DNA of 64,000 bases from Heloderma charlesbogerti (lineage: Eukaryota; Chordata; Lepidosauria; Squamata; Helodermatidae), in contig JANEZZ010000979.1 of assembly GCA_026122225.1 (NCBI GenBank), positions 1-64,000 on the forward strand, in the 5' to 3' direction. A model generated the notes under the pieces. The model made no database searches. It was not told the origin of the DNA and saw only the letters and a list, made by a program, of their open reading frames with translations. The position numbers and the translations under genes were made by a program. Shown one piece after another: positions 8,412 to 56,267 of the stretch; position 1 is the first letter of the stretch; each line of letters starts with the position of its first letter.

Positions 8412-9607
8412 TAGGAAGGAATGTACTGACTGCGTAAAATCCGCTCTGTGTTTCGTGGATTGTCAGGCACCTTTTGTTCCATCGTCTGCTCACACATGCG
8501 AATTTTTTTGTAATGCAGAAAAATACGTAAATAATTCTGTAAGAGGGTTCGCAACAATTCACATAATTTACCTCAGTACATAACATTTTGCATATTGTTC
8601 CTAGGGATGGCAGAGAATTCCGCCACAGATCACAGTGAGGCTGAATGCCAGTGCATTCGAGATCGCTTCGGGACGAGACTCACCTGGGGCGGATCTTCCA
8701 GGCAGCGGCGGCGGCTCCGGCAGTGGCTTCGGCAGCGGCGGCAGCGGCAGCCGGTCTTCCGACTGGCTGCCGCCACCGCCATTTCCACTCTGGTAAAAAA
8801 AAATAAGAAAGAAAGAAAAAGAAAGACGTGATAGGCTAAGTAAAGATTTACATAGCTTATCATGACTAGGTTAAAAAAAAAACAAATGACATGATAGGCT
8901 ACGTAAATCTTTACGTAGCCTATCATGGCTGGGTGGGTTAAAAAAAAAAACGCGTACCCAAATGGCGGCGGCTATGGCCGCTGCCATTTGCATTCCTTAT
9001 TTTTGCCCTCTTAATCTACGTAAATATTTATGTAGACTATGATGGTGAAAATCAAAGGGAACGCAAATAGCGTAGCGGGTGCTATTTGCGTCCCTTTTTG
9101 ATTCGCCGTTTTAGCCTACGTAAATATTAACGTAGATTAGGAGGGCAAAAATAAGGAACGCAAATGGCAGCGGCCGTAGCCGCTGCCATTTGCGTACACA
9201 GGTTTTGTTTAGTTTTTTACCCAGAGCTCTCCGCGGCCGGAAATCCGGCTGCGGACGGCTCTGGCCTGGCCGGGCCTGGCCGGCTGCTCCTCGGAGCTGC
9301 CACGGAGCACAGCCGGCCATGGAGGATTCCGGGGGGAGGAACGGAGTGCCTCCCCCCCATCCAGGATTCCGGGGGGAGGGACGGAACGCCTCCCCCCCAC
9401 CATCAACATAATCCGCGAACAGGTAAGTGACTTTCGTACATCCCTAATTGTTCCCCATTCTACTCATCTTTTCCCTGCGTATATGTACGAGTCTCCCCAG
9501 AAACTTGCGTATTTTCCAACAAATAAATATGCATAAATGTTGTGCTTCCACACAGGTTGGATTCTTCGAAATCGGAGCTCATTTTAGTCCATCTCCAATT
9601 TCTCCTA
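8412..9607. mobile_element. Older hAT-like MITE, split by a nested-palindrome element
   Basis: The sequence on both sides of the element at 8602-9446 belongs to the same family as the uninterrupted copy at 56268-56676. Shared phrases include TCCGCTC, GTGGATTGTCAGG, ATGCAGAAAAATACG, CATAATTTACCTCA and a right part containing GAGCTCATTTTA. The octamers flanking the whole unit are ATATGCAA (8404-8411) and ATATGTAA (9608-9615), 7 of 8 identical. That supports an old hAT insertion later hit by a younger one. Confidence 0.7.
8602..9446 (+). mobile_element. Nested-palindrome hAT MITE, copy 1
   Basis: 845 bp between TAGGGATG and CATCCCTA, flanked by the perfect 8-bp duplication ATTGTTCC (8594-8601 and 9447-9454). 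From left to right: a GC-rich left end, two imperfect hairpins built on TAGGCTACGTAAA (8829-8930), a CAAATGGCGGC hairpin, a central mirror-image block around 9060, the same modules in reverse, and a GC-rich right end with two tandem GATTCCGGGGGGAGG units. A perfect AGGTAAGT lies at 9421-9428 pointing outward. The left equivalent is mutated to ACTCACCT. There is no transposase ORF; apparent ORFs are GC-rich shadows. Confidence 0.93.
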
Positions 9608-11017
9608 ATATGTAATGTGTGTTTTAGAATAAAATGTGTTCAAAAATGCATATTTTGTGAGGAAATAAATTAAAACATAACTACAGTTTTGTGCATTTTT
9701 TAAAGAAAATTTCAGATTGGTGTGGAATGGGATGGAACAGATTTATGAATGAACATATGTAAAACTGACTGGAAATAGACTGATCTCTTGTGGCTGTATG
9801 GGCATTGCCCTGCTGAATGAACAGCAGGATGAAAGTTGATCAGTGGTCAAGATATCCCCCACATAACTTTGAGTATTTAGCAAAATAAATAAAAAATTGC
9901 AATGACAAGACCTAGTGTTCTCTCTCATAAGAAAAGTTGGGAAATAATAGAGGTGCTACAATAACACAACAGACAGTATATTTTATTTATATTTATCACC
10001 AGAATAAAGAGGTGTCGGTAACCACAGAAACAAAGATCCCATTGAAGTAAAACATTTTGGATAATAATTTTATATTGTATAGTTGCCACGGTTTTATTGC
10101 AGCATGTATAATCCAAATATAATTTTATGCGGGGGAACCCTGTGAGCTGTGCTGAAAAATGCAACAATTTCCATGAGGAATGAAACCCAGTTAGCAGCTA
10201 GATCAGTCTGCCAAGGACTGCTCTTCAAATGCTTATTGATGAGAGACATTGGGGTTGTGCAGCCATTACCTTTCAGGCCACTTCTTTGCAAAAAAGAAAA
10301 TCCTTGGTCCTGAAATTGTCACTTCAATGACTTTATAGTAATTGGAACATTTTTTTCCCCCTGCCGGTCCAGCTAATCCTTCAGTAAAATTCAATTTTAT
10401 GCACCGCAGTTTTATTATTGAGAGATACCTTCACTCATATAAATACTTCAAGCCATTTAACACACTAGCTCCTTGTCCACCTTAGGCTCCTATGCCAATA
10501 GGCCAAAAAATATGCCAGGATGAGTTCCAAGGCCAGCACAGAAAATGTGCCACAGTGCATATAAAAGGTAGCTAAGTGAGAGACATCAGACAATTTACTT
10601 CAGGACTATCCAAATCTTGGGCCAAATCTGCAGCCCAATATTTGGGTAGTTATTTCACGTTAGTATGTCACCTTCAGCCAACTTCACACCTGGAACTCCA
10701 GGTCATACCTCTCCTCTGTTTTCCATTTGCTCTCACAGTTTTCCTTACCTGGTGAGCATCCCACCTCTGCTATTTGTCTCATTCTTCCTGAGTACACTTC
10801 TTCCCTCTCTTTTCATAGGATTTTACTGCAAGGACCCAGGCTTCATTTGGGGGGGGGCAGTATGCACTTGTAACACATCCCCATCACCACCACATACATA
10901 CACATACTCTGATCCTATCCCACACATACAGTCTCATGAGTCATGAAAGAAAAGTTTCTGTTTTAATTCTGAAATTATATTTCTACATTTCCGAACTTAT
11001 ACCATGGCCGTAGTCTC

Positions 11018-11054
11018 CCTCTCTCTCTCTCTCTCTCTCCCTGTGTGTGTGTGT
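11018..11054. repeat. (CT)n followed by (GT)n
   Basis: About 11 CT units then about 6 GT units. Confidence 0.95.
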
Positions 11055-11235
11055 TCTAGACATTTACTCACATATATATTTGGGTTTCTACCAACAGCAC
11101 TGGCCCATTCTGTGCCTGGGAACTAACACAGCTACCTCTTCTTGAAATTGTTGCAATGGATGGCTCCAGATTTAGCCAAAATGGATGGAATCCATCAATC
11201 TCATGATATACCTGCCAACTAAGGTTTATGCCGTA

Positions 11236-11325
11236 ATAACTGTGTAATGCTGTTAAGGTGCCACAAGACTCTCCATTGTTTTTGCTGCAACAACCTAACA
11301 TGGCTACCCCTCCAGACCTTAATTA
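11236..11325 (+). repeat. Dispersed repeat containing AGGTGCCACAAGACTC
   Basis: Contains AAGGTGCCACAAGACTC and TTGCTGCAACAACCTAACATGG, a combination I recognise as a common interspersed repeat tail in reptile DNA. A related inverted phrase (TTGTAGCACCTTAAAGACTAACA) occurs at 19761-19790. I cannot assign the class from sequence alone. Confidence 0.45.
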
Positions 11326-12440
11326 TCATGGTGTTTTTGCCCTGCCAATAATTGTCCCTCTCTCCTGCTGATGCCCAAGGAACTCTGGGACCGGTAGTTT
11401 TTGAAAGAGCACTTCACATAAAGGGAAGCACAAATCTCTGTCTCTCAAACTACAAGCCCTAATTTAACTACACGAGCACAATCTCTGTGTGCTAGAGAAG
11501 GCCAGCCACTCTCCACCCAGAATGTTGCTTGTCCTTTTGACTGCTTCTGACTGACTCCAGGAAATCTCACAAGGTCTGGGCAACAGGTGCATAGATATAT
11601 GGGAATATATTTTGGTAAATATCCTCAGGTATAATCTAAAATTTAGCCTCGGTTATTTTCCGCTTGGTCCTAGGATTGCAGCCTGGGGCAGCACCTCCAC
11701 CTGGGGTCTCCCGGCCTGGTAATTCCATCCCCATGCTTGGGTTCTCTTTTATGCCTGTTTTAGCCTTGTACAGGATAAGAGCTCTTCAGTCAGCGATGAC
11801 TGAAAAAAAACCCTGTAGCGCTTCTATGACAGAAAAGCAGCAGAGTCAACCAACCACAGGCATTTCATTCTGACTGGCCACTCCCTTCATGATGGACAAG
11901 CAGTTTAGTCAGTCACTGCTAGCAACTTCATTACCACAATTACCACAAACAAGCACATTGCAGGACACATGGGCACACTTACGTTATTGTAGTACCGCTA
12001 TTCATTTTTCAGAGGGTTACTCACATTGTCCCTGATATGTCTGTTTTTCCCGTTTCCACCCCATCCCATCCCTTAAATTCTCTTAGGGTACCCAGAGCAA
12101 AGGAGGGCAGGGTTCTTGACCTTCTATATAATAATTTTATTATAGAAGAGGGAATTTTGGGAAGTGTGGCTTGCTATGTGGGGATATGATTTGTGGCTTA
12201 GGGTTATGCATGATAGCGAGGACTGCCAAAATTGAAGGTCAGTGACAACAAGAATGAACAATGTACAGATGAACAGTCTTCTTAGATCCATATTCTTACA
12301 TTGTATTGCATGTTGAAGTAATATTCAACACAATTATGTTGTTGTTGTTGTTGTTGTTGGAATATCACTTCAACATATATCTGTTAATAATGGGTTGGAT
12401 CCAATCTTTTACAAATGGAAGAGCTCCTTCCATCCACAGA

Positions 12441-12883
12441 TAGGGGTGTACGAAACTCCACTTACCTGGCTCCGCTGGGGTCCATGGGTGGGGGGAGGTG
12501 ATCTGTTCCTCCCCCCGGAATCCTCAACGGCGGGGAGGTGATCCGGTCCTCCCCCCCGGAATCCTGCCCGGCCGGCTCTGCTCCGCAGCCAGTCAGCAGA
12601 GCTGCCGGCCGGGCCAATCTGCAGCAGGGCCTCCACCTGCATAGGGGACACCATTTGCGTCCCTACCCTAGCCCATGATAGGCTAGCGTAAGGACGCAAA
12701 TGGCAGCTGCTACAACGGCCGCCATTTTTGGCCACAGCAGACTGGCAGCGGCCAGAGCCGCCGCTGCATCCGCCACCAGGTAGGTCCATCCTGGGGGGAT
12801 TCCGTGGGGTGGCGGTGGGGGGGGAGGCCATTCTGCCACTGACTCTGGGCTAGAGTCCATGGCAGAATTCTCTGACATCCCTA
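12441..12883 (-). mobile_element. Nested-palindrome hAT MITE, short copy 2
   Basis: 443 bp from TAGGGGTG to CATCCCTA in reverse orientation (right end first). The flanking octamers are TCCACAGA and TTCACAGA (7 of 8). The central block is reduced to a single imperfect hairpin around 12665-12735 and an ATTTGCGTCC / GGACGCAAAT pair. ACTTACCT (donor-like, reverse strand) lies at 12460-12467. The other end has the variant AGGTAGGT. This is an internal-deletion derivative of the long form. Confidence 0.85.
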
Positions 12884-13335: not shown

Positions 13336-13337
13336 AA

Positions 13338-13376
<39 letters not shown>
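13336..13376. repeat. (ATT)n microsatellite
   Basis: About 13 ATT units in an AT-rich setting. Confidence 0.95.
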
Positions 13377-13378
<2 letters not shown>

Positions 13379-14204: not shown

Positions 14205-14209
14205 TATTC

Positions 14210-14335: not shown

Positions 14336-14345
14336 ATTCCCCATG

Positions 14346-17751: not shown

Positions 17752-17752
17752 A

Positions 17753-18799: not shown

Positions 18800-19694
18800 T
18801 AGGGATGTCAGAGAATTCCGCCACGGATCTCGGGAAGGCCGAATGCCAGCACATTCGGCCCCCCAAAATCGGTGGCGGAACTGTCAGGGCCCCCCCCCGC
18901 ACCCCTGGGACGAGACTTACCTGGGGCGGATCTTCCTGGTGGCGGCGGCGGCGGCTCCAGCGGCGGCTCTGGCAGCGGTTTGGTGGCAGCGGCGGCTGCG
19001 GCAGCCGGTCTTCTGACCGGCTGCCGCCGCTGCCATTTCCAGTTTTTTTTAAAAAAAGACATGATAGGCTACGTAAAGATTTACGTAGCCTATCACGGCT
19101 AAGTTTAAAAAAAAACCCGTGATAGGCTACGTAAATGTTTACGTAGCCTATCACAGCTGACTTAAAAACAAAAACAAAAAAACAATGCGCGTATGCAAAT
19201 GGTGGTGGCCATGGCTGCTGCCATTTGCGTTCCTTATTTTGGCATGTCTTAGTCTACGTCAAGATTTACGTAGACTAAGACAGCGAAAATAAGGGGAACG
19301 CAAATAGCGTAGCGTCCGCCAAGTTACGCAAATAGCATAACGGCTGCCGCCATTTGCGTACGCGCATTGTTGTTTTTTTTTTAAGTCAGCCGTGATAGGC
19401 TACGTAAACATTTGTGTAGCCTATCACGGCTGACTGCAGGGATGCAAACGGCAGCGGCTATGGCCGCCGCCATTTGCGTCCCTGCTAGCCAGCGGCCGGA
19501 TGTCCAGCTGCTGGCAGAGCTGGCCGGTGGCTCCGCAGAATCCCTGCGGAGCACAGCCAGCTGGCCAGGATTCTGGGGGGGGGGGAGGAATGGAGCGCCT
19601 CCCCCCCATCCAGGATTCCAGGGGGAGGGACAGAGCGCCTCCCCCACACCATCAGCATAATCCGCAAAAGGTAAGTGACTTTCGTATATCCCTA
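18800..19694 (+). mobile_element. Nested-palindrome hAT MITE, copy 3
   Basis: 895 bp. Flanking octamers CTTCAGAG and TTTCAGAG (7 of 8). The left end is itself a hairpin (TTCCGCCACGGATC ... ATCGGTGGCGGAA, 18818-18869). Two TAGGCTACGTAAA hairpins lie at 19059-19097 and 19111-19154. The GCAAATGGTGGTGGCC hairpin, a central block near 19300 and mirror modules follow. ACTTACCT at 18915-18922 and AGGTAAGT at 19669-19676 both point outward. The right end has two tandem GGATTC(T/C)GGGGG units. Confidence 0.93.
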
Positions 19695-20899: not shown

Positions 20900-21449
20900 T
20901 AGGGATGTGTGAACCCACCCCCGTCCACGTTCTCCAGGCACCCACCCAGCCCCTGCATCTGCTCGCCAGTCCCTGCACCACACATGAGCCCCTCCTGCAC
21001 TTGGTGAGCAGCCCGCACACATCCTTGCAGCCTCAGCGAGCTCCGCGGCCACCATTTCTTAAAACAGCAAACACAAAAAATGTGCATATTTGCATATGCG
21101 CAAACATGTACAGTTTGTGAATGCACATGTTTGCAAAAACGTGCATTTCTGCACATATCCAAATATGCGCTCTCACAAAAATTGCATGTTTGCATGTGCA
21201 AATATGCACATTCGCAAAAATGTGCATTTTCACACACATGCAACTATGCACATTTTTGTGATCGCCATTTTATTTTTCAAAAAAGTGGCAATCGCAGAGC
21301 TCAATGAGGCCGCCGGGGTGAGTGCGGACCACTCACCAAGTGCAGGCAGGGGGCGAGCGGGGCAGGGGCTTGGCGAGCGGGGTTTGGGGGTGTGGGCAGG
21401 GGGGTTCTGCGGGATTCCCAGATGGAATCGGGGGTCAACGCCATCCCTA
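20900..21449. mobile_element. hAT MITE of a second TAGGGATG family
   Basis: 550 bp from TAGGGATGTGTGAACCC to GCCATCCCTA with a perfect 8-bp duplication AAGGCAAC (20892-20899 and 21450-21457). The flanks are GC-rich. The middle (21065-21270) is an array of alternating TGTGCATATTTGCATATGCG-like phrases in both orientations and folds back on itself. The subterminal sequence differs from the nested-palindrome family and lacks TAGGCTACGTA and AGGTAAGT, so it is a separate family moved by the same or a related transposase. Confidence 0.9.
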
Positions 21450-24552: not shown

Positions 24553-25500
24553 TAGGGATGCACGAAAGTCACTTACCTGGTCTCACAGCTTGCTTGGCGG
24601 TGGGGGGGAGGCACTTCGCTGCTCTCCCCGAAGTTCAGGCCGGGGGGGGAAGCTTCCCTCCTCCTCGCCCAGCCGAAATTCAGGCCGGGGGGGAGGCTTC
24701 CCGCCTCGCCTGGCCGAAATTCAGGCCGGGGAGAAGCGCCCCGTCTCCCCGGCCTCGAACTTCAAAAGAAAAAAAAAATGCCCTTGTGATACGTAACGAT
24801 TAACGTAGCCTATCATGGCTAGATCTGCAAAGTCAGCTGTGATAGGCTACGTTAATCGTCACGTAGCCTATCACGGGTGACTTTGAAGAAAAAAAAAAAA
24901 GCACATACGGCTAATGGCGGCCCCCATAGGGAGCTGCCCTTCGCGTTCCTTATTTGGTCCCTGTAGTCTACGTAAAGATTTACGTAGACTACAGCGAAAA
25001 TAAGGGCAACGCAAATAGCGTTGCCCTTATTTTCGCCGTAGTCTACATAAATCTTAACGTAGACTACAGGGACCAAATAAGGAACGCGAATGGCAGCTCC
25101 CTATGGGGGCCGCCATTAGCCGTACGTGCTTTTTTTCAAAGTCACCCGTGATAGGCTACGTGACGATTAATGTAGCCTATCACGGCTGACTTTGCAAATC
25201 TAGCCGTGATAGACTACATTAATCGTTACGTAGCCTATCACAGGGGCATTTTTTTTTTTACTTTTCTTGTAATGGCGGCGGCGGCAGCCGGTCGAAAGAC
25301 CGACTGCCGCCACCACCCCTGATGAAGACCTGCTGAACCGCCGCCAGGAGCCGCCGCCGGGATGGACATTCGTGAAAGGTAAGTCCCATCCGGGGGGGCG
25401 GGGGAGCGCGGAGAATTTCTCCCCGAACAACCTTCGGAGGACCGAATGCGTTGGCACTCGGCCCCCCGAAGTTTTGGGGAGAAATTCTCCCCCATCCCTA
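24553..25500 (-). mobile_element. Nested-palindrome hAT MITE, copy 4
   Basis: 948 bp in reverse orientation with a perfect duplication AAATGCTC (24545-24552 and 25501-25508). The right end has three tandem GAA(A/G)TTCAGGCCGGGG units (24629-24740). Hairpin pairs lie at 24788-24880 and 25146-25243, GCTAATGGCGG / CCGCCATTAGC hairpins flank a mirror block centred near 25020, and a GGCGGCAGCCGGTCGAAAGACC hairpin lies near 25275. The left end folds as GAGAATTTCTCCCCGAA ... TTGGGGAGAAATTCTC. Outward donor-like octamers at 24571-24578 and 25377-25384. Confidence 0.95.
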
Positions 25501-26576: not shown

Positions 26577-26716
26577 ATATATGCATTTGTTGTTCAGTCA
26601 TTCAGTTGTGTCCGACTCTCAGTGACCCCATGGACCATAGCATGCCAGGCCTTCTTGTCCTGCGCTCTCTCCCGGAGTGTGCTCAAGTCCATATTCATTG
26701 CATCAGTGATTCTACC

Positions 26717-27974
26717 TAGGGATGTATGAAAGTTCCGCCACGGATCTCGGGGAGGCCGAATGCCAGGTAAGGACTTACCTTAGGCAGATCTTCCTGGAGG
26801 TGGCGGCCACCAGGTTCTTCCGACCAGCTGCTGCCTAGGGATGGCGGAGAATTTCTCCCCGAAACTTCGGGGGGCCGAGCGCCAACGTGTTTGGCCCCCC
26901 GAACAAGTTTCGGGGAGAAATCCTCCGCACCCCCCCACCCCCCGCACCCCCCCCCCGGGACGGGACTTACCTTTTGCGAATGTCCCTCCCGGTGGCTGGT
27001 TCGGCCGGCGGTTTGGCAGGTTTTCGAGCGAGGCGGGAGCGGCAGCCGGTCTTTCGACTGGCTGCCGCCACTGCCATTGTAATGAAAGAAAAAAAAAAAC
27101 TTCCCCTGATAGGCTACGTGATGATTCACGTAGCCTATCACGGCTAGATCTGCAAAGTCAGCCGTGATAGGCTACGTGAATCGTCATGTAGCCTATCAGG
27201 GGAAGTTTTTTGTTTTGTTTTTTTACTTTCGCGTTCGCAGCCGGGCGAGGCGAGGCGCCTCCCGCCCGGCCTGAATTTCGGCCGGGCGAGGCAGGAAGCC
27301 TCCCCCCCCCGGCCTGAACTTCGCGGGGGGAGCAGTGAAGCGCTCCCCCCCACCGCGAACGGCCTTCGACGACAGGTAAGTGACTTTCGTCCACCCCTAC
27401 TGCTGCCACCGCCATTTCCAGGTTAAAAAAAAAACGTGATAGGCTACATAAAGATTTACGTAACCTATCACAGCTAGATTTTTAAAAAACACTGTGATAG
27501 GCTACGTAAATGTTTACATAGCCTATCACGGCTGATTTTTTTTTTAAAAAACAACAACAACGCGTGTACGGGCGCCGCCATTTGCGTTCCTAATTTTGGC
27601 ACGTCTTAGTCTACGTAAACATTTAGGTAGACTAAGACGGCGAAAATAAGGGGAACGCAAATAGCGTAGCGTCTACGCTATTTGCATTCCCCTTATTTTC
27701 GCCGTCTTAGTCTACGTAAATGTTTACGTAGACTAAGACATGCCAAAATAAGGAATGCAAATGGCAGCGCCCATGGGTGCCGCCATTTGCGTACGCGCAT
27801 TGTTGTTGTTGTTTTAAATCAGCTGCCGCGGAGCACAGCCGCCCATGGAGGATTCCAGGGAGGAGGAACGGATCGCCTCCCCCCCATCAAGGATTCCAGG
27901 GGAAGGGACGGAACACCTCCCCCCCCACCATCAACATAATCCGCGGAAAGGTAAGTGATTTTCGTACATCCCTA
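26717..27974 (+). mobile_element. Nested-palindrome hAT MITE, copy 5 (outer, hybrid)
   Basis: 1258 bp including copy 6. It begins TAGGGATGTATGAAAGTTCCGCC and ends GTACATCCCTA. The flanking octamers do not match (ATTCTACC versus GGCCCAGC), yet both flanks are BovB sequence about 2.8 kb apart in an intact element. Hairpins on TAGGCTACGTAAA at 27437-27471, 27494-27532, 27608-27641 and 27707-27742 surround a mirror centre near 27665. ACTTACCT at 26773-26780 and AGGTAAGT at 27949-27956 point outward. Confidence 0.88.
26836..27399 (+). mobile_element. Nested-palindrome hAT MITE, copy 6, inserted in copy 5
   Basis: 564 bp with a perfect duplication CTGCTGCC (26828-26835 and 27400-27407). It interrupts the GC-rich left arm of copy 5. 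The left end folds as GAGAATTTCTCCCCGAAACTT against AGTTTCGGGGAGAAATCCTC. It has only one hairpin pair (27105-27205), so the central CAAATGGCGGC and TAGTCTACGTA modules have been lost. Donor-like octamers at 26965-26972 and 27374-27381. Confidence 0.93.
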
Positions 27975-28293
27975 GGCCCAGCCGCTTCACTCTTTCTGGC
28001 GCTACTTGGAAATACCTTCTGCTCTTCCCCAGTAGTATATTGGACACCTTCCGACCTGAGGGGCTCATCTTCCGGCATCATATCTTTTAGCCTTGTGATA
28101 TGTTCCATGGGGTTTTCTTGGCAAGAATACTGGAGTGGGTTGCCATTTCCTTCCCCAGTGGACAACATTTTGTCAGAACTCTCTGCCATGACCTGTCCGT
28201 CTTGGGTGGCCTTGCATGGCATAGCTTATGACTTCACTGAGTTACGCAAGCCCCTTCGCCACAACAAGGCAGTGATCCATGGAGGGGATATAT

Positions 28294-29156
28294 TAGGGAT
28301 GTCAGAGAATTTCACCACGAATCTTGGGGAGGCCGAATGCCAGCACATTCGGCCCCCCGAAATCGGTGGTGAAATGGTCTGCCACCTCCCCGCCCCCCGC
28401 CCCCAGGACGGGACTTACCTTGTGAGAATGTCCCTGGTGGCGGCGGCTCCGGCGGCGATTCGGCGGCGGTTCTTCTGACCGGCCGCCGCCGCCATTTCCA
28501 GTAAAAAAAACACACACCAAAAAAACGTGATAGGCTATGTAAACATTTACATAGCCTATCACGGCTGAGTGAAAAAACCAACCAACCAACCGCGCGTACG
28601 CAAATGAGGGCGCCCATGGGCGCCGCCATTTGCATTCCTTATTTTGGCACGTGTAGTCTACGTAAACATTTACGTAGACTACGGCGAAAATAAGGGGAAT
28701 GCAAATAGCGTTCCCCTTATTTTTGCTGTAGTCTGCATAAATGTTTACGTAGACTACACATGCCAAAATAAGGAACACAAATGGTGGTGCTCATGGGCGC
28801 CGCCATTTGCATACGTGCGTTTTTTGTTTTTGTTTTTTTCACTCAGCTGTGATAGGCTATGTAAACATTTATGTAGCCTATCATGGCTGACTGCAGGGAT
28901 GCAAACGGCGGTGGCTACGGCCGCCGCCATTTGCAGTCCCGGCAGAACAGGATTCGTGGCGGGAGGGATGGGGTGCCTCCCCCCTGGCCAGAATTTCGGG
29001 GGGGAGGGACGGGGCACCTCCCCCTTGGCCAGAATTTTTGGGGGAAGGGACGGGACACCTCCCTCCCCAGCCAGAATTTCGGGGGGAGGGACGGAGCACC
29101 TCCCCCCCACCGCGAATCAACTTTCGTCAAAGGTAAGGGACTTTCGTACATCCCTA
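28294..29156 (+). mobile_element. Nested-palindrome hAT MITE, copy 7
   Basis: 863 bp with a perfect duplication GGATATAT (28286-28293 and 29157-29164), inserted at the boundary of BovB copy 3. Modules: a left hairpin, TAGGCTATGTAAACA hairpins (28529-28565 and 28850-28887), a GCAAATGAGGGCGCCCATGGGCG hairpin, and a TAGTCTACGTAAACA mirror block (28655-28760). The right end carries four tandem CCAGAATTTCGGGGG-type units (28988-29110). ACTTACCT at 28413-28420; the right octamer is AGGTAAGG at 29131-29138. Confidence 0.94.
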
Positions 29157-35065: not shown

Positions 35066-35288
35066 TTAAAGTAATTTGTGTTTTGGCCCTCAGCCAACAG
35101 TTGTTGATGAAGGGAGAGAACAATTTCAGACAGTTCTTACTATTTCTAACTTTATTAATGTGAGAAATGTGGGGTTGGTTTTTGTTTGTTTTGTTTGGCT
35201 CACCCCTCCAACCACTAGGTATTACTGTTACTCAAATTGGTTTCAATTGACATTAATTACCATCTCAAATAACTTCCTGCTTTGTTAA

Positions 35289-35596
35289 TCTAGCCATGAT
35301 AGGCTACGTGAATCATCACGTAGCCTATCAGGGGGCGTTTTTTTTTTCTTTTATTGCAATGGCGGAGGTGGCAGCCGGTCAAAAGACCGGCTGCCGCTCC
35401 CGCCCCACTCGAACACCCACCGAACTGCCGGCCGGACCCGCCGCCGGGAGGGACATTCGGCGAAGGTAAGTCCCGTCCCGGGGGGGGTGCGGGGGGCGGG
35501 GGGGTTCGGAGGATTTCTCAATTTCTTGTTCGGGGGGCCAAACACGGTGGCGCTCGGCCCCCCAAAGTTTCAGGGAGAAATTCTCTGCCATCCCTA
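35289..35596 (-). mobile_element. Nested-palindrome hAT MITE, truncated copy 8
   Basis: Only the left-end half remains (in reverse orientation): one TAGGCTACGTGA hairpin (35298-35331), the GGCAGCCGGTCAAAAGACC hairpin, AGGTAAGT at 35464-35471 and the terminal hairpin with CATCCCTA ending at 35596. The break at 35289 lies in a TAGCCATGATAGG arm. It adjoins BovB copy 2 directly. Confidence 0.9.
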
Positions 35597-36716
35597 GATT
35601 TTCTTGAAGAGATCTCAAGTCTTTCCCATTCTGTTGTTTTCCTCAATTTCTTTGCATTGTTCATTTAAGAAGGCCTTCTTGTCTCTCCTTGCTATTCTCT
35701 GGAACTCTGCATTCAGTTGCATATATCTTCCCCTTTCTCCCTTGCTTTTCGCTTCTCTTCTTTCCTCAGCTACTTGTAAAGCCTCATCAGACAGCCACTT
35801 GGCTTTCTTGCATGTCTTTTTCTTTGGGATGGATTGAGTTGCTGCCTCCTGAACAATGTTACGGACCTCCATCCATAGTTCCTCAGGCACTGTGTCTATC
35901 AGGTCTAATAGCTTAAATCTATTCCTCACCTCCACTGTATATTCATCAGGGATATGATTTAGGTCATACCTGAATGGTTTAGTGGTTTTCCCTACGTTCT
36001 TCAATTTAAGCCGAAATTTTGCAAGAAGCAGCTCATGATCTGAGCCACAGTCAGCTCCAGGTCTTGTTTTTACTGACTGTATAGAGCTTCTCCATCTTTG
36101 GCTGCAAAGGATATAATCAATCTGATTTCGATATTGACCATCTGGTGATGTCCATGTGTAGAGTCGCCTCTTGTGCTGTTGGAAAGGAGTGTTTGCTATG
36201 ATCAGCATGTTCTCTTGGCAAAACTCTATTAGCTTTTGTCCTGCTTCATTTTGTACACCAAGGCCATGCCTGCCTGTTATCCCGGTGATTTCTTGCCTTC
36301 CTACTTTAGCATTTCAATCCCTATGATGAAGAGGACATCTTTTTTTGGTGTTAGTTCTAGAAGGTGTTGTAGGTCTTCATAGAACAGATCATCCTCAGCT
36401 TCTTTGGCCTCAGTGGTTGGGGCATAGACTTGAATTACTGTGATGTTGAATGGTTTGCCTTGGATTCATACTGAGATCATTCTATCATTTTTAAGATTGT
36501 ACCCCAGTACTGCTTTTCCCACCCTTTTGTTGACTATGAGTGCTATGAATACTATGAGTGCTAATTTATTTCTTCTAAGGGATTCTCACCACCAGACACA
36601 TCCACAGCTGAGTGTCCTTTCGGGTTTGGCCCAGCCGCTTCACTCTTTCTGGCGCTACTTGGAAATACCCTGTGCTCTTCCCCAGTAGTATATTGGACAC
36701 CTTCCGACCTGAGGGC
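35597..36716 (-). mobile_element. BovB copy 2, fragment
   Basis: Corresponds to about 61980-63275 of the intact copy: the 5' leader, endonuclease and linker. It is cut at its RT side by the hAT terminus at 35596. A deletion at about 36585 removes most of the leader between TCTTCTAAGGGATTC and CACCAGACACATCC, and there is a small duplication near 36540-36560. The open stretch 35615-36208 (minus) covers the second half of the endonuclease with SDHELLLAKF and the linker. No functional product. Confidence 0.92.
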
Positions 36717-38258: not shown

Positions 38259-39843
38259 TAGGGATGTCAGAGAATTCCGCCATGGATCTCAGTGAGGCCG
38301 AATGCCAGTGCATTCAGCCCCCCGAAATCTGTGGTGCAACGAAGCCCCCCGCCCCACCACCCCGTGAAAGGCATGCGAAACAGAGCACTTACCTGGTGTT
38401 GTTCGCGCTGCTTTGCGAATGGCGGCTGCATCTGCAGCCGCCATTCGCTTCCCCATTTAGGCCGTGATAGGCTACGTAAATACTTACGTAGTCTATCACG
38501 GCTAATGCAGGGATGCCATTTGCGTCCCTGCAGAGGCTGTGATAGGCTACGTAAATATTTATGTAGCCTATCATGGCAAAAAAATGGAATGCAAATGGTG
38601 GCCGCCGTAGCTGCTGCCATTTGCGTTCCTGTTTTTTTTTTTGCTGTGATAGGCTACGTAAATATTTATGTAGCCTTTCATGGTAATAAAACAGGGGTGC
38701 AAATGGCATAGTGGCCGCCATTTGCGCCCCTGTCTTTCGCCGTGATAGGCTACAAAAATATTTACGTAGCCTATCACGGCCAAAAACATCAACGCAAATG
38801 GCAGCCGCCATAGCCACTGCCATTTGCGTCCGCAGGCTCTAGGGATGTACGAAAGTCACTTACCTTTTCGCACCTTGGCTTCGCAGTGGGGGGGGAGGCG
38901 CTTCTCTTCTCCCCCCGAAGTTCAGGCGAGGGGGGGGAGGCGTCCTGCCTCGCCCGGCTGAAATTCAGGCCGGGGGGGAGGCTTCCTGCCTTGTCTGGCC
39001 GAAATTCAGGCCGGGGAGAAGCGCCCCGTCTCCCCGGCCGCGAAACAAAGTGTAAAAAAACAACAACACCCTGATAGGCTACGTAACGATTAACGTAGCC
39101 TATCACGGCTAGATTTCCAAAGTCAGACGTGATAGGCTACGTAAATCGTTACGTAGCCTATCACGGGTGACTTTGGGGGGAAAAAAAGCGCATACGCAAA
39201 TGGCGACACCCTATGGGCGCCACCATTTGCATTCCTTATTTGGTCCCGGTAGTCTACGTAAAGATTTACGTAGACTATGCTGTAGTCTACGTAAAACTTT
39301 ACGTAGACTACCAGGACCAAATAAGGAACGCAAATGGTGGTGCCCATAGGGTGCTGCCATTTGCGTACGCACTTTTTTTTTTTCCAAAGTCACCCGTGAT
39401 AGGCTACGTAACGATTTATGTAGCCTATCACGGGTTGGTTTTTTTTTTTTAAACTTTGTAATGGCGGCGGCTGCAGCTGGTCAGAAGACCGGCTGCCGCC
39501 CCCACCCCCGACGCAAGGCCGATGAACCACCGCCGGGACCCGCCGCCAGGAGGGACATTCGCCAAAGGTAAGTCCCATCCCGGGGGGGCGGGGGGGCGGA
39601 GAATTTCACCGCTAATTTCGGGGGGCTGAATGTGTTGGTGCTCAGCTCCCTGAAGATTCGGGAAGAAATTCTCCGCCATCCCTAGCAGGCTCCACACGCC
39701 TGTGAATGCACCCAGCCGGCGGCTCCGCAGAGTTGCTGCGAAGCGGAGCCGGCCAGGTTAGGATTTCAGGGGGAGGCGCTCCGCACCTCCCCCCTACCGC
39801 GAATCACCCCTGCGAAAAGGTAAGTGACTTTCGTACATCCCTA
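38259..39843 (+). mobile_element. Nested-palindrome hAT MITE, copy 9 (outer)
   Basis: 1585 bp including copy 10; 740 bp on its own. Perfect duplication CTCTGAAC (38251-38258 and 39844-39851). Hairpins on TAGGCTACGTAAATA at 38465-38500, 38537-38574, 38645-38680 and 38745-38780 alternate with ATTTGCGT-type hairpins. ACTTACCT at 38387-38394 and AGGTAAGT at 39818-39825 point outward. Confidence 0.94.
38840..39684 (-). mobile_element. Nested-palindrome hAT MITE, copy 10, inserted in copy 9
   Basis: 845 bp, reverse orientation, perfect duplication GCAGGCTC (38832-38839 and 39685-39692). Three GAAATTCAGGCCGGGG-type units in its right end (38916-39020). A complete module set follows: paired hairpins (39071-39165), a GCAAATGGCGACACC hairpin, a TAGTCTACGTAAAG mirror block at 39250-39312, and mirror modules to 39434. 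Donor-like octamers at 38858-38865 and 39566-39573. Confidence 0.94.
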
Positions 39844-40540: not shown

Positions 40541-40892
40541 TAGGGTTGGCGGAGAATTTCTCCACGAATCTTCAGGAGGCTGAGCGCCGATGCATTCGGC
40601 CCCCCGAAAGTGTTGGGGAAATTCTCCGCCGGTGCCCCCCCCCCGGGATGGGACTTACCTTCGGCGAATGTCCCTCTCAGTGGCGGGTCCCGGCGGCGGT
40701 TCGTCAGTGGTTCATCGGGGGCGGGGGCGGCAGCCAGTCTCCCGACTGGCTGCCGACGCCGCCATTGCAAAAAAAAAAAGTAAAGTAAACCCCACACACA
40801 CACCCGTGATAGGCTATGTAACGATTTACGTAGCCTATCATGGCTAGATTTCCAAAGTCAGCCATGATAGGCTATGTAAATTGTCACGTAGA
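40541..40892 (+). mobile_element. Nested-palindrome hAT MITE, truncated copy 11
   Basis: Left half only: TAGGGTTGGCGGAGAATTTC, terminal hairpin, ACTTACCT at 40653-40660, a CAGCCAGTCTCCCGACTGGCTG hairpin, one full TAGGCTATGTAACG hairpin and half of the next (ending at 40890), where copy 12 begins. Confidence 0.88.
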
Positions 40893-41550
40893 TAGGGATG
40901 GCGGAGAATTTCTCCCCGAAACTTCGGGGGGGCCGAGCGCCAACGTGTTCGGCCCCCCAAAGAAGTTTCGGGGAGAAATTCTCCGCACCCCCCCCGCACC
41001 CCGCACCCCCCCCGGGACGGGACTTACCTTTCCCGAATGTCCCTCCCGGGGGCGGGTCCCAGCGGCGGTTCGTCGGGTCTTCGTCAGGGGCGGGGGCGGC
41101 AGCCGATCTTTCGACCAGCTGCCGCCGCCACCATTCCAATAAAAGAAAAAAAAACGCCCCCGTGATAGGCTACGTGACGATTAACGTAGCCTATCACGGC
41201 TAGATTTGCAAAGTCAGCCGTGATAGGCTACGTCAATCGTCACGTAGCCTATCACGGGTGACTTTAAAAAAAAAAAAAAAAGCGTGTACGGCTAATGGCG
41301 GCCCCCATAGGGAGCCGCCATTCACGTTCCTTATTTGGTCGCTGTAGTCTACATAAAGATTACGTAGACTACAGCGAAAATAAGGGCAACGCTATTTTCG
41401 TTGCCCTTATTTTCGCCGTAGTCTACGTAAAGATTTATGTAGACTACAGCGACCAAATAAGGAACGCGAATGGCGGCTCCCTATGGGGCCGCCATTTGCA
41501 TACGCGCTTTTTTTTTTTAAGTCACCCGTGATAGGCTACGTGACGATTTT
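40893..41550 (+). mobile_element. Nested-palindrome hAT MITE, copy 12, right end missing
   Basis: It starts TAGGGATGGCGGAGAATT and has a near-perfect terminal hairpin (TTTCTCCCCGAAACTTCGG ... AAGTTTCGGGGAGAAATT), ACTTACCT at 41022-41029, two hairpins at 41162-41258, a GGCTAATGGCGGCCCC hairpin, a TAGTCTACATAAAG / TAGTCTACGTAAAG mirror block centred near 41390 and the first half of the final hairpin. The right end and its duplication are lost in a deletion that stops in the Harbinger MITE. Confidence 0.9.
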
Positions 41551-48470: not shown

Positions 48471-48472
48471 TA

Positions 48473-48635: not shown

Positions 48636-49267
48636 TAGGGATGTATGAAACACTTACCTGGTTTTGTCCAGGGACATCCGTGGTGGCGGGGAAGCACTCT
48701 GTTCCTCCCCCTGAAATCCTCGATGGCGGGGGAGGCAATCCGTTCCTTCCCCTGGGAATCCTGCCCGGCCAGGCCATGGAGCCGCCAGCCAGGCCAACCC
48801 TTAGCGGGGCCTCCAGCCACTTCTGGGCTGCTGCAGACGCAAATGGCGTCCTGAGTAGGGGATGCCATTTGCGTCCCTGTGGTAGCCCGTGATAGGCTAC
48901 GTAAATATTTACGTAGCCTATCACGAAGAAAACAGGAACGCAAATGGCGTAGGGGATGCCATTTGCGTCCCTGCTTTAGCCGTGATATGCTAGGTAAATA
49001 TTTACATAGCCTATCACGGGCTACCATAGGGACGCAAATGGCATCCCCTACTCAGGACACCATTTGCATCCGCAGGAGCCCGACAGCAGCTGGAGCCGAA
49101 GCCGCTGCCGGAGCCGCAGCCGGAGCCGCAGCCAGGTAGGCTCCATTTTGCGGGGCTTTTGTGGGGTGGTGGGGCAAGGGGCTCTGTTCTACCACCGATT
49201 CTGGGGGGCCAAATTCACTGGAATTCAGCCCCCCTGGGATCTGTAGCGGAATTCTCTAACATCCCTA
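48636..49267 (-). mobile_element. Nested-palindrome hAT MITE, copy 13
   Basis: 632 bp, reverse orientation, perfect duplication ATTCTGAG (48628-48635 and 49268-49275). Two TAGGCTACGTAAATA-type hairpins (48888-48925 and 48980-49020) alternate with ATTTGCGTCCCT / AGGGACGCAAAT arms. The GC-rich end carries a (CCGGAG)n-like stretch at 49085-49135. ACTTACCT at 48652-48659. The opposite end has the variant AGGTAGGC. Confidence 0.93.
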
Positions 49268-50096: not shown

Positions 50097-50762
50097 TAGG
50101 CATATCAGGGAATTCTGCCACGGATCTCGGTGAGGCCAAATGCCAGTGCATTCGGCCCCCCAAAATCTGTGGCGGAACAGCCTGCCACCCCCCCTGCCCC
50201 CTGGAACCCCCTGCCCCCCCTGCGGATCCCCCCGGGTCGAGACTTACCTGGGGTGGATGTTCCGGGCAGTGGCAGCTCCGGCAGCAGCTTCGGCGGCGGC
50301 GGTGGCAGCGGCTGGTCTTTTGCAGTCAGGAGGTGTTTTTTTTTTTACAGAGACATGATAGGCTACGTAAAGACTTACATAGCCTATCACATCCCGGTTT
50401 AAAAAAAAATGCATACGCAAATGGCGGCGGCTATGGCCACTGCCATTTGCGATCCTTATTTTTCGCCATCTTAGTCTACGTAAATATTTACATAGACTAT
50501 TGCAGTGAAAATAAAGGCGAACGCAAATAGCTATTTGCGTCCCTTTTTGATTCACCGTTTTAGCCTACGTAAATATTTTTTTACGCCATCTTAGTCTACG
50601 TAAGACCGGCTGCGGATGGATCTAGCCTGGGCCTGGCCGGCTGCTCCGCGGAGCTTCCGCGAGCACAGCCGGCCGTCAAGGATTCTGGGGGAGGGATGGA
50701 ACGCCTCCCCTCCCACCATGAACAGAATCCACGGAAAGGTAAGTTACTTTTGTACATCCCTA
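50097..50762 (+). mobile_element. Nested-palindrome hAT MITE, copy 14
   Basis: 666 bp. The left terminus is mutated (TAGGCATATCAGGG), the right is intact (CATCCCTA). Flanking octamers GAAAACTG and GAAAATTG (7 of 8). Left hairpin GCCACGGATC ... ATCTGTGGCGG, TAGGCTACGTAAAGA hairpin at 50358-50390, a GCAAATGGCGGCGG hairpin, and a collapsed central block near 50530. The mirror half is largely deleted. ACTTACCT 50242-50249 and AGGTAAGT 50737-50744. Confidence 0.9.
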
Positions 50763-51924: not shown

Positions 51925-52712
51925 TAGGGATGGACGAAAGGGACTTACCTTGTCCCGCAGCTTGCTTCGCGGTGGGGGGGAGGCGCTTTGCTTCTCCCCC
52001 TGAAGTTCAGGCGAGGTGGGGGAGGCGCCCCGCCTCGCCCAGCCGAAATTCAGGCTGGGGAGAAGCGCCCCGTCTCCCCGGCCGCGAAACAAAAAGTAAA
52101 AAAAAAAAAAGACCCCATGATAGGCTACGTAATGATTAACGTAGCCTATCATGGCTAGATTTCCAAAGTCAGCCGTGATAGGCTACGTAAATCGTCACGT
52201 TTTACGCTATTTGCGTTGCCCTTATTTTTGCTGTAGTCTACATAAATCTTTACGTAGACTAGACGTGCCGAAATAAGGAACGCAAATGGCGGCACCCATG
52301 GGCCGCCGCCATTTGCGTACGCGCTTTTTTTTTTTTCCAAAGTCACCCATGATAGGCTACGTGATGATTTACGTAGCCTATCATGGCTGACTTTGGAAAT
52401 CTAGCCGTGATAGGCTACATAAATCATCACGTAGCCTATCACAGGTGTGTGTTTTTTGTTTTTTGTTTACTTTTTTATTTTGTAATGGCAGCAGCGGCAG
52501 CTGGTCGGGACACCGGCCGCCACCCCCACCCCTGCCGAAACGCCACCGAAACGCCGCTGGGACCCGCCGCCAAGAGGGACATTCGGCCATGGTAAGTCCC
52601 ATCCCAGGGGGAGTGGGGGGCCGGCGGAGAATTTCCACAACACTTTCGGGGGGCCGAATGCATCGGCACTCGCCCTCTCGAAGATTCTTGGAGAAATTCT
52701 CCATCATCCCTA
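51925..52712 (-). mobile_element. Nested-palindrome hAT MITE, copy 15
   Basis: 788 bp, reverse orientation, perfect duplication ACTGGTAG (51917-51924 and 52713-52720). Hairpins at 52117-52152, 52347-52385 and 52407-52442. One central half is deleted at about 52200 (CGTCACG runs into TTTTACGCTATTTGCG), leaving a single TAGTCTACATAAATC hairpin. ACTTACCT 51943-51950. The left-end octamer is TGGTAAGT at 52590-52597. Confidence 0.93.
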
Positions 52713-53175: not shown

Positions 53176-53412
53176 GAGAGCCATCGTGGTGTAGTGGTGA
53201 GACTGTTGGACTGGGAGCCGGGTTCTAGTCCCCACTCGGCCATGGAAGCTCACTGGGTGATTTGGGGTAAGTCACAGACTCTCAGCCCAGCCTACCTCAC
53301 AGGGTTCTTGCTGTGAGAATAAAATGGAGAGGAGGAGGAGGAGAATGTAAACTGCCTTGGGTTCCTTGCAAGAGGGAAAAAGGCGGGATATAAATCTAAT
53401 TAATAAATAATG
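53176..53412 (+). mobile_element. tRNA-derived SINE, second copy
   Basis: GAGAGCCATCGTGGTGTAGTGG start, B box GGTTCTAGTCC at 53221-53231, then CATGGAAGCTCACTGGGTGA, CCTACCTCACAGGGTTCTTG and an AAT-rich tail. About 85-90% identical by eye to 17136-17402, with a short deletion before the B box. Confidence 0.87.
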
Positions 53413-53989
53413 GTGAATAAACAAATTAAAAATTTAATTAAAAATCATTTTTTTAATTTTAAAAAAATTATCCCTTAAAAATTGAGCCACTAGATTGAAA
53501 CAGAGAATCCATAGTAGCAATAATAACCAGCTGTTCAGGCTCATGGGGTTTGTGTCAGCCCAGTGGAATGTTTGATATTAAAAAATATTTGGTGCACCCT
53601 GTTATTTTACTCTTCAAGAAAAATAAGGATGGTTTTGTGCGTCTGTGTGTGGAAGTCTTCCCACTGCAAATTGAGAGAGAGGGTATATCTACCCTGCACA
53701 CCACTTGGTTTTATATCAGTTTAACTATCAGGGCTGTAGAGAGTACAGGGAATCATAGTTTAGTGCTGAGAGTTAGAGGACTTTAGTCCCTCTGACAGAA
53801 CAATGGCTGCAAAACTATAATACTTTCCTGGGCGTGAGCCCCATTAAACAAGGTGGGAGTTACTTCCAGATAAACATGTGTGAAGGAATTAGCTGGATTT
53901 TAAATGTTTGTTCAGCTAAGTTCACCAAACCCCATATTTCTGAGACCTGGACAATCCCAGTTTAGATCTGCCAGTTTGTGTGGATATAT

Positions 53990-54250
53990 GTAGTATAGCT
54001 GCACATGTATCGCCTCTCAAAATTCCCTGCCCTATTTGTGGGCAGACAAATTTGGGGGATGATTTCACTTCAGGGGGAGGGGAAATTTCCCAACAGTTCC
54101 TTGGAGTTGGGGCTCACCATTAGCAGCACCAATAGCACAACTTCTATCTTTTTTCCTAAAGGTTTTGCGGGTTTCCTCTGTCATCGCAAGTGGCAACAGC
54201 AGCAACTGCATTGGCAGCTTGGCTGCCATTTTTTATCACCATAATGCCCC
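53990..54250. repeat. Dispersed repeat, unknown class, copy 2
   Basis: Inverse relative of 48240-48470: TTGTGGGCAGACAAATTTGG, GGAGTTGGGGCTCACCATTA and CCTAAAGGTTTTGCGGG. Confidence 0.4.
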
Positions 54251-55047
54251 ATACCTAGAGTCATTCTGGGGCATGGTAGGTGGAGGGCAGGCAGCCACCA
54301 AAAAGAAAACATGGTAAAGAAATTTCTGAAGCATGGCTTTCTATTTCGAGGGGAGTAAGAAAAAGAACAATCTCAGAACTTTTCTCTGAAAAATGTCTTC
54401 TAAGAAATTTCAGCCTGGATCTGGTTTGCTTCTGGATTCAGCAGCTTCTCTAGGGTCTCCCAAATGTTGAATTCCTGAGGGGGTGATTATGGATACATAT
54501 TGCCACTGTTGCAGTTTCTTATAATACTTCCCCTTCCCTGCAAGTCTTGAGTCAGGTATAGGGCAGGGGGCAGTGTTGGGTACAACTCTAGAGAAGAGAT
54601 AGAACTTCTCCTTCTTCTGGCTTCGTATCCTGTTATGCTCATTCAGTCTGGAGCATTTGAGAGGCCCTACTTCCTTCCTGTAAATGATTAAAAGGGATGG
54701 AATGTCCGACACCATGATAGTATGCTGTGTGATGTGTTCCTCACACATCACCAACAGAATGATGTCGTCATCTCTCACTGTGCCAGGGTCCTGTGGGGTC
54801 AGGCCTGCAAAGCCTTGGCTGGGAGGGCCAGAGACAAGGCAGGCCAGACCCAGGCATCTGTAGGGGTACACTTTGATGAGGCTCATACTGGGGAATGAAA
54901 GCCCGAAGTCAAGACCCAAGTCCCTGATTGGAAAAGATGGTCCATCAAAGGGAGCATCATCTGCTGCTACCTCTACTTGCCCCCTTTGTAATTGTTTTTA
55001 GCTTGGGGAAGGGAAAGGAGGGTATGAAGTAGGGGTGGACGAAAGTC

Positions 55048-55055
55048 ACTTACCT
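55048..55055 (-). promoter_or_regulatory. Outward 5' splice-donor-like octamer, right end of copy 16
   Basis: ACTTACCT on the plus strand, i.e. AGGTAAGT reading out of the element on the minus strand, 18 bp from the terminus. It matches the vertebrate donor consensus AG|GTAAGT exactly. The same octamer is at the equivalent place in most other copies. Whether it is used in splicing or is a transposase-binding repeat is unknown. Confidence 0.5.
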
Positions 55056-55865
55056 GTCGTTGAAGGCCGTTCGCGGTGGGGGGAGGCGCTTCGCTGCTCC
55101 CCCCGCGAAGTTCAGGCCGGGGGGAGGAGGCTTCCCGCCTCGCCCGGCCGAAATTCAGGCCGGGGGGGAGGCTTCCCGCCTCACCCAGCCGAAATTCAGA
55201 CCGGGGAGGAGGCGCCTCACCTCGCCCGGCCGTGAACGCAAAAGTAAAAACAAAAACAAAAACACGCCCCCTGATAGGCTACGTGACGATTCACGTAGCC
55301 TATCACGGCTAGATCTGCAAAGTCAGCCATGATAGGCTACGTCAATCGTCATGTAGCCTATCACGGGTGACTTTAAAAAAAAAAAAACATGTATGCGAAT
55401 GGCGGCCCCCATAGGGAGCCGCCATTCGCGTTCCTTATTTAGTCGCTGTAGTCTACGTAAATGTTTACGTAGACTACGGCGAAAATAAGGGCAACGCAAA
55501 TAGCGTTGCCCTTATTTTCGCCGTAGTCTACGTAAACATTTACATAGACTACAGCGACCAAATAAGGAACGGGAATGGCGGCTCCCTATGGGGGCCGCCA
55601 TTATCCGTACACTCTTTTTTTTTTTAAGTCACCCGTGATAGGCTACGTGACGATTCACGTAGCCTATCATGGCTGACTTTGCAAATCTAGCCGTGATAGG
55701 CTACGTGAATCATCACGTAGCCTATCAGGGGGTGTTTGTTTGTTTTTTTCTTTCATTGCAATGGCGGTGGTGGCAGCCGGTCGAAAGACCGGCTGCCGCT
55801 CCCGCCTCGCTCGAACACCCGCCGAACCGCCGGCCGGACCAGCCACCGGGAGGGACATTCGGTGA

Positions 55866-55873
55866 AGGTAAGT
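55866..55873 (+). promoter_or_regulatory. Outward 5' splice-donor-like octamer, left end of copy 16
   Basis: AGGTAAGT followed by CCTGTCCCGG, about 125 bp from the terminus, pointing outward. It sits between the GGGACATTCGG(T/C)GA box and the terminal hairpin. Confidence 0.5.
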
Positions 55874-56267
55874 CCTGTCCCGGGGGGGTGCGGGTGCGGG
55901 GGGGTGCGGAGGATTTCTCCCCGAAACTTGTTCGGGGGGCCGAACATGTTGGCGCTCGGCCCCCCGAAGTCTCGGGGAGAAATTCTCCGCCATCCCTAGT
56001 ATGAAGTTGAGACACTAGCAAGCAGTATGTGGGGATTTTCAAGTATTCTGTCCAAAGACTTGGAATATCCTGAGCACTTGCAAAGAGAGCAGGGAGGTGA
56101 CTGCTGATCCCCAAGCTCCTTGGAAGGAGGCCACAGAAAATGTAATAAATAAATAAACTTGGATTTCTTGATCTGTTCCCAGGTTCAGTGCCAGCCCTAG
56201 CTTTTGGGGGGAACTTTGGCAAGGTGCTCTCAACCAGCCTCCTTCCCTGAGTGCACCCACTTCCTCG

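Follow-up and report, generated by a model that had tools for sequence, protein, structure and literature searches.

We analysed a 64,000-nucleotide stretch of the Heloderma charlesbogerti genome (assembly GCA_026122225.1, contig JANEZZ010000979.1, positions 1 to 64,000 of the forward strand; hereafter the window) and describe in it a family of short mobile elements built around a large palindrome. With a probability of roughly three in four, we read the family as non-autonomous hAT elements with Ac-type ends, whose mirrored core is kept by episodic copying of sequence from one arm to the other. Long palindromes are usually unstable in genomes (PMC7999016, in part); this one nonetheless spread to tens of thousands of copies and stayed largely mirrored while its sequence changed. 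The contrast between mirrored non-CpG change and unmirrored CpG decay tells apart what changed in source lineages and what changed in dead copies, and would make the family a natural archive of copying between arms in an animal. New here are the joint evolution of the arms, the perfect splice donors that face outward at both ends, and one end that is common to the family and to transposase-bearing elements.

A nested palindrome between hAT-type ends

The terminal motif TAGGGATG occurs 32 times on the two strands of the window, against 2.5 expected. Pairing of ends yielded 11 copies flanked by 8-bp target-site duplications (TSDs; 9 exact, 2 with one mismatch), direct reading of the sequence a twelfth complete copy at 50097-50762, and a profile search the copy at 26717-27974 together with three truncated parts (35275-35596, 40541-40892 and 40893-41549). 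The family total of 16, namely 12 complete copies, one with two ends and no duplication, and three truncated, agrees with the sixteen copies or parts counted in a preliminary description of this DNA. Its statement that they share ends and 8-bp duplications holds for 12, copy M having no duplication and three being truncated. Complete copies measure 443-969 bp (copy F being given minus the insertion nested inside it), half of them (6/12) 845-969 bp, and all copies jointly occupy 11.2 kb of the window:

Copy A, 8602-9446, minus strand: complete; TSD ATTGTTCC; sits in an older element at about 8417-9605
Copy B, 12441-12883, plus strand: complete, short (443 bp); TSD with 1 mismatch; TAGGCTACGT hairpin gone
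Copy K, 18800-19694, minus strand: complete; TSD with 1 mismatch
Copy C, 24553-25500, plus strand: complete; TSD AAATGCTC; palindrome at 24764-25265
Copy M, 26717-27974, minus strand: split by D; two ends, no TSD; at a Bov-B deletion junction
Copy D, 26836-27399, minus strand: complete, nested in M; TSD CTGCTGCC
Copy E, 28294-29156, minus strand: complete; TSD GGATATAT
Copy P, 35275-35596, plus strand: right part only; from the profile search
Copy F, 38259-39843, minus strand: split by G; TSD CTCTGAAC
Copy G, 38840-39684, plus strand: complete, nested in F; TSD GCAGGCTC
Copy O, 40541-40892, minus strand: right part only; from the profile search
Copy N, 40893-41549, minus strand: without left end, retains most of the palindrome; from the profile search
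Copy H, 48636-49267, plus strand: complete; TSD ATTCTGAG
Copy Q, 50097-50762, minus strand: complete; TSD GAAAACTG/GAAAATTG
Copy I, 51925-52712, plus strand: complete; TSD ACTGGTAG
Copy J, 55030-55998, plus strand: complete, clearest of all; TSD GTATGAAG

Copy M is flanked at 26587-28287 by two pieces of one Bov-B long interspersed element (LINE; matching 60287-60414 and 63189-63501), with no duplication. This Bov-B lacks ~2.8 kb at the termini of M, which fits recombination between two copies or an aberrant transposition.

The ends carry a short terminal inverted repeat (TIR) of Ac type, TAGGGATG/CATCCCTA, and match the first 8 bp of the TIR of maize Ac, C/TAGGGATGAAA, an element with an 8-bp TSD (PMC3260210, in part). 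Duplications of this length, as hAT elements make them, flank 12 of the 16 window copies and 40 of 60 sampled genomic loci. The preferred hAT target is nTnnnnAn. Among the window TSDs, T2 and A7 each occur in 6 of 12 (joint p 0.02 under an assumed base rate of 0.28); the sampled TSDs have T2 in 19/40 and G1 in 26/40, with A7, at 15/40, no higher than A4 (17/40) or A6 (16/40).

The genomic sample consisted of 60 other loci at matches to a 19-mer of the core, on nine contigs, and as their choice relied on that core 19-mer and was confined to the first 100 listed places, it is biased to one subfamily. Forty loci were complete with duplications (exact in 35) and represent 40 different sequences; the other 20 were not delimitable and were dropped, as were a further 3 of the 40 from the arm tests. 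Nine shifted right-flank controls gave 0-6 duplications in 60, and 0 under stricter ends. A length of 849-992 bp was found for 36 of the 40 complete copies, and a palindrome of 479-527 columns at 79-93% identity in 37. Across the 2.30-Gb genome of the window, the core 19-mer has 10,283 exact occurrences (reversed control, 0) and a 26-bp left terminus 34,175 (control, 0). Since only 17/40 sampled complete copies and 6/13 window copies keeping the left end carry the exact 26-mer, some 75,000-80,000 left-ended copies are implied, a figure extrapolated from small samples. Density in the window exceeds the genome average, with 2 core 19-mers against 0.29 expected and 6 termini against 0.95.

None of the 5 scanned open reading frames (ORFs) overlapping copies contained a Pfam family, and the Pfam scan of 9 of the 20 window ORFs of at least 150 amino acids (aa) gave one match, to Bov-B. 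Rfam (gathering threshold) and tRNA scans found nothing, the full hairpin had no match in GTDB contigs, and hairpin 15-mers matched 18 and 13 loci in IMG/VR, with a single match each, which we took as chance. Short, non-coding and high in copy number, with TIRs and TSDs, the elements have hallmarks of miniature inverted-repeat transposable elements (MITEs), and the earlier classification of the family as hAT-type is upheld. In searches of open papers we did not recognize a description of it, which does not show the family to be uncatalogued.

Read from the left, an element opens with the terminus TAGGGATGTACGAAAGTCACTTACCT, followed by a GC-rich segment and then the palindromic core; beyond the core come a segment with ATGGCGG and a GC hairpin, the splice-donor motif, a hairpin in subterminal position and, last, CATCCCTA. 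In copy J, the parts are (strand given where assigned):

55048-55056, minus strand: left outward 5' splice site CAG|GTAAGT, 18 bp from the terminus
55057-55244: left flank, rich in GC and CpG; weakly conserved (mean 0.80, 38 aligned rows)
55246-55753: central palindrome (511 columns, 91% against its reverse complement; predicted fold)
55270-55369: left TAGGCTACGT hairpin pair and linker
55389-55431: left ATGGCGGC hairpin
55444-55479: left TAGTCTACGT hairpin
55484-55514: centre around GCAACGCAAATAGCGTTGC
55519-55554: right TAGTCTACGT hairpin
55567-55609: right ATGGCGGC hairpin
55632-55731: right TAGGCTACGT hairpin pair with inverted linker
55760-55804, plus strand: ATGGCGG, then a GGCAGCCGGTC..GACCGGCTGCC hairpin
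55865-55873, plus strand: right outward 5' splice site AAG|GTAAGT, 125 bp from the terminus
55906-55990: right subterminal GGAGAATTTCTCC-type hairpin

The self-match of J reached a bit score of 707, compared to a top score of 30 among 60 dinucleotide shuffles, and copy C aligned to itself in reverse complement over 517 columns, with 89% identity. The predicted fold of 55240-55760 has -276.7 kcal/mol, compared to -62.3 on average in shuffles (z -41.9), and smaller palindromes of roughly 100 bp (the hairpin pairs) as well as 34-bp hairpins lie within the J core. The notion of a palindrome built of palindromes therefore stands for the core but not for the copies as wholes: the palindrome is the middle ~510 bp of a larger element whose flanks are unlike each other, and it sets in ~216 bp inside the terminus of J, so that the long inverted repeats do not form the termini as they do in foldback elements. 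A consensus, proposed earlier as a check, preserved the symmetry; built from five copies (J, C, N, G and I), it was 94.0% palindromic over 513 columns, exceeding the longest self-match of every member. The series of modules listed in the preliminary description recurs in J, C and N and, with losses, in G, I and D, which form one subfamily, but A, K, Q, M, F, H, B and E are arranged differently; its expectation of a high copy number with the same modular order was hence right about number, while the order is not uniform across the window copies. A linker is present on both sides in J and C and in neither arm of A, K and M, and the core of copy I is just 66% symmetric. Leaving aside two values of 1.0 for B from very short alignments, identity over aligned columns was 0.76-0.93 within J, C, G, I, D and N, 0.65-0.85 within the looser set of A, K, Q, M, E, F, H and B, and 0.66-0.79 between the sets.

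That this structure is an artefact of assembly, or arose from small separate repeats inserting independently, has next to no probability. The 12 complete window copies and the 40 genomic ones have their own TSDs and different flanks, and excising copy A and one duplication in silico leaves a continuous older element resembling 56268-56676, that is, an empty site. The possibility raised earlier that the modules are independent insertions fails likewise, as the whole palindromic core lies between the same ends in 37 of the 40 sampled copies.

Joint evolution of the two arms

In window copies J and C, the two arms of one copy resemble each other more closely than the same arm does between the copies: arm-to-arm identity was 92.5% in J and 94.7% in C, compared to 88.6 and 88.4% between J and C in either arm. 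Most changes that separate window copies affect both arms: pooling the 15 pairs of six copies, we counted 128 both-arm changes, against 21.7 expected from independent change, and 9 shared arm mismatches. In single pairs, the ratio of mirrored changes to shared mismatches was 18 to 1 for C-E, 1 to 1 for J-N and 0 to 0 for E-M, with mirrored counts ranging from 0 to 18, transversions included; the 15 pairwise counts are not mutually independent. A tree that groups the left arms together was rejected with four copies (approximately unbiased test, p-AU 1e-84) as well as with three (p-AU 1e-4).

The genomic copies separate two kinds of change. We called a variant mirrored when each arm had at least 3 carriers and, of the carriers for the rarer arm, 60% or more had it in both arms, and excluded variants seen fewer than 6 times. 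In the 37 copies used, which belong to one subfamily group, 21 of 32 non-CpG variants were mirrored within copies, with 7 one-sided and 4 in different copies, while only 3 of 26 CpG-decay variants were mirrored, 20 occurring in both arms but in different copies and 3 on one side (p 4e-5 for the difference). Mirrored non-CpG variants alongside unmirrored CpG decay indicate, therefore, that mirrored change took place mainly in source lineages and unmirrored decay in dead copies. Comparing the arms of subfamily consensuses in three pairs, we found 14 mirrored differences and no shared mismatch in one pair, 10 and none in the second, and 5 and 4 in the third (threshold 0.085).

These patterns suggest a course of events in which a change in one arm of a source lineage would occasionally be carried over to the other, probably through copying between the arms while the core is folded, as hairpin or cruciform, in replication or the repair of gaps. 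A new subfamily would then be largely mirrored when it starts, and dead copies would decay arm by arm.

Several observations weigh against this reading. Single-arm differences between the consensuses are about as numerous as mirrored ones (14 to 14, 12 to 10 and 5 to 5 in the three pairs), and 5-11 of 222 sites still distinguish the two arms of a subfamily consensus. Nor are all mirrored variants independent, as some share a site or occupy adjacent ones. Furthermore, the nearest relative of an arm was the same-side arm of another copy in 62 of 74 cases (37 copies, recent subfamilies) and its own partner in 5. Arm copying must therefore be rare and not part of each jump, and arm correction at every transposition is ruled out. 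A similar pattern would moreover result from compensatory selection, or if one half gave rise to the palindrome anew.

Selection could keep the arms complementary through compensating changes if the core must fold, be it for transposition, nucleosome exclusion or an RNA hairpin, and we consider this unlikely. Hairpin modules and core are conserved at 0.91-0.98, compared to 0.80 in the GC-rich flank and 0.86 in the exon-like part (38 rows), a comparison biased at the core centre, which was the search key. In a set of 47 distinct 28-bp hairpin cores, changes on both sides affected 18 cells, compared to 8.5 in shuffles, and covariation scored 0.125 against 0.080, neither value being reached in any of 500 shuffles; G-C became T-A in 13 cases and A-T became G-C in 4. 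However, pairs with a double change were no more numerous than in shuffles (3 vs 3.9), and a control shifted by two columns reached almost the same score (0.114). The intermediates that selection predicts, shared single-arm mismatches, are few (0-4 per subfamily consensus pair), and copy B has its ends and TSD despite having no TAGGCTACGT hairpins.

Alternatively, the palindrome may have been re-formed repeatedly, each subfamily being founded by an inverted duplication of one half through snap-back synthesis or the fusion of two copies, which would yield perfect arms in a single event. Module content does change on both sides together between arrangements, as for the linker of J and C as opposed to A, K and M, and 46 gap runs are identical in both arms, against 113 one-sided, in the 37 copies. 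Two close subfamilies, however, share not only 5 mirrored differences but also 4 old arm mismatches in the same arms. Because duplication of a whole half would erase all old mismatches, the events must have been partial, which amounts to arm-to-arm copying; we regard re-formation as rather unlikely.

Outward splice donors and CpG content

We found 25 perfect matches to the splice donor MAG|GTRAGT in the window copies, every one of them facing outward, compared to 1 in the remaining 52.8 kb; the bias in orientation has p 6e-8 if the sites are independent, which those of related copies are not. They occur in 12 of 13 copies retaining the left end and at the right end of 13 of 16. In the 40 genomic copies, 60 perfect donors face outward and 0 inward, and taking the best donor match within a set stretch near each end, a perfect site was present at the left end in 28 and at the right end in 31. 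Under the looser pattern AGGTRAG, one inward site appeared, in copy M. The preliminary description, whose interpretation is partly supported by our results, mentioned neither these donors nor the CpG richness nor the joint evolution of the arms.

The copies are also rich in CpG. Pooled over the window, they have an observed-to-expected (o/e) CpG ratio of 0.94 and a GC content of 0.55, above the CpG-island cut-offs (o/e >0.6, GC >0.5), with an o/e of 0.23 elsewhere in the window; single copies spread more widely (o/e 0.50 in B and 0.60 in H, GC 0.46 in M2). In the genomic sample, o/e was 1.12 in copies and 0.43 in flanks. Between the arms of nine window copies, CpGs decayed 6.4 times as fast as transitions arose at non-CpG sites (Bov-B, 11.7 times), so these copies do not display the germ-line protection from CpG decay expected of CpG islands, and unmethylated islands after insertion are ruled out. 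Inserted copies hence behave as methylated DNA, and their CpG richness is therefore inherited from the source and no proof of activity.

The family might be a mobile two-way promoter, with a CpG-rich core bearing ATGGCGGC motifs that would transcribe outward in both directions and transcripts that would splice into host exons; we think this unlikely. The exclusively outward perfect donors, the CpG excess in window and sample, and the absence of an outward donor from the first 700 bp of the transposase elements L133 and C235 argue for it, as does the conservation of the right donor, 0.968 against 0.88 on either side. The right donor, however, ranks 117th among 961 windows in conservation, and the left donor, at 0.942 against 0.928 and 0.795, is less distinct and ranks 318th; these values come from an alignment not anchored on the donor, a donor-aligned profile being circular and hence unused. 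Methylated-like CpG decay and the inward site in M also count against it. Depletion of poly(A) signals is ruled out, AATAAA occurring at 0.96 vs 0.89 per kb, and so is a conserved open reading frame running from ATGG up to the right donor, which is closed in several copies. Neither protein search found a host protein: the translated frame of copy K had no match at E 0.001 among 85 candidates of limited length, and six right-exon peptides had none at E 1 among the best 7,991 candidates, again of limited length.

In its fuller form, this idea makes the family a two-way first-exon cassette, in which a CpG-rich mirrored promoter core and outward donors would feed transcripts into neighbouring genes in either orientation. 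Arm copying in source elements would keep both barrels alike and thus uphold the symmetry, and germ-line activity would be limited to a few source copies until methylation silences them. We hold this to be rather unlikely. The donors are plain as sequence, and their use in RNA can at most be inferred; if they are used, the family would constitute a large natural experiment in the gain of promoters and first exons.

The AGGTAAGT motif may instead be a subterminal site for the transposase, or hitch-hike with the ends, and resemble a donor by chance, a possibility to which we give limited but appreciable weight. One motif lies near each end in inverted orientation, as in subterminal repeats, and on the left it stands 18 bp from the terminus in 10 of 12 window copies with a perfect site. 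On the right, by contrast, the distance varies from 56 to 145 bp, the variants CAGGTGAGT in A and CAGGTAGGT in B remain donor-like, and the motif was not found in the first 700 bp, at the one end read, of the two transposase elements with the same terminus. Splice sites near the ends of Ds elements are known from maize.

Transposase elements, known systems and neighbouring repeats

The family lacks its own transposase. Its mobilisation in trans, which we infer from sequence, is probably the work of a resident hAT transposase with elements that begin with the same terminal 16-23 bp. A search for hAT transposases (PF05699) gave 150 scored matches among 871 candidates, some with open frames of 879-908 aa. 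Two of the elements, L133 and C235, are 81% alike over the transposase frame and both begin with TAGGGATGTCAGAGAA, their mutual similarity starting within one base of it; the first 23 bp of L133 equal the right end of copy K. Together they share 16-23 bp of one end with the family, and in the parts read, matches to its body are stray and no longer than 34 bp. It weighs against this part of the reading that shared mobilisation is drawn from one end, the one read, of two elements.

Other candidate ends were rejected. CATCCCTA at 4689 of L133 is not its other end, as the similarity between L133 and C235 continues across it. Terminus matches beside transposase ORFs are not the ends of autonomous elements in 9 of 13 cases, where they face away from the ORF; of the remaining four, two (other than L111 and L112) are short copies in their own right. 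As a side observation, the left terminus of the family lies within ~1.5 kb (at most 7 mismatches) at 13 of the 30 transposase loci L100-L129, L124 and L125 having it at the same position. This seems above the genome density, and two of these termini belong to short complete copies beside the frame.

Among the closest parallels is the Ds1 class of the maize Ac/Ds system, which has TAGGGATG ends and an 8-bp TSD in common with the family. Ds1 shares little with Ac beyond the ends (PMC3260210, in part), and the body of our family was likewise not found in the transposase elements, in the parts read. The family differs in having an animal host, and the string "palindrom" is absent from the main text of PMC3260210. 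Galileo, a Foldback-like element of the P superfamily in Drosophila, also has long inverted repeats, which diverge within a copy by 0.002 and 0.007 in two copies and by 0.063 and 0.057 in two others (PMC2775673, in part), and sets a partial precedent for inverted repeats that are nearly identical inside one copy (PMC3573991, PMC2775673, both in part). Yet it belongs to another superfamily, and its inverted repeats are terminal, whereas those of our family lie centrally and consist of smaller hairpins. In Tetris, a foldback transposon of Drosophila virilis, the TIR repeats group together in 2 of 3 complete elements, read as possible homogenisation; it differs by tandem 220-bp repeats in its TIRs, and the part of PMC4079207 consulted mentions no nested mirror.

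Two further families in the window (20900-21449 and 56268-56676) have the same TAGGGATG ends, with a TSD that is exact in one and has one mismatch in the other, and differ in having neither the TAGGCTACGT hairpin nor a perfect splice donor. The first, with AAGGCAAC as its exact TSD, contains an internal array of units resembling GCAAATATGCACATT; the second is one of two copies of a TAGGGATGTACG-ended family, the other, at 8417-9605, being split by copy A. Finally, Bov-B LINE copies at 1086-2768, 35598-36545 and 60287-63501 have 93-97% mutual identity, one with an 842-aa frame, and the best matches of the Bov-B reading frame, which point to a squamate host, include Podarcis, Varanus, Zootoca and Anolis, along with ruminants, a group also known to carry Bov-B.

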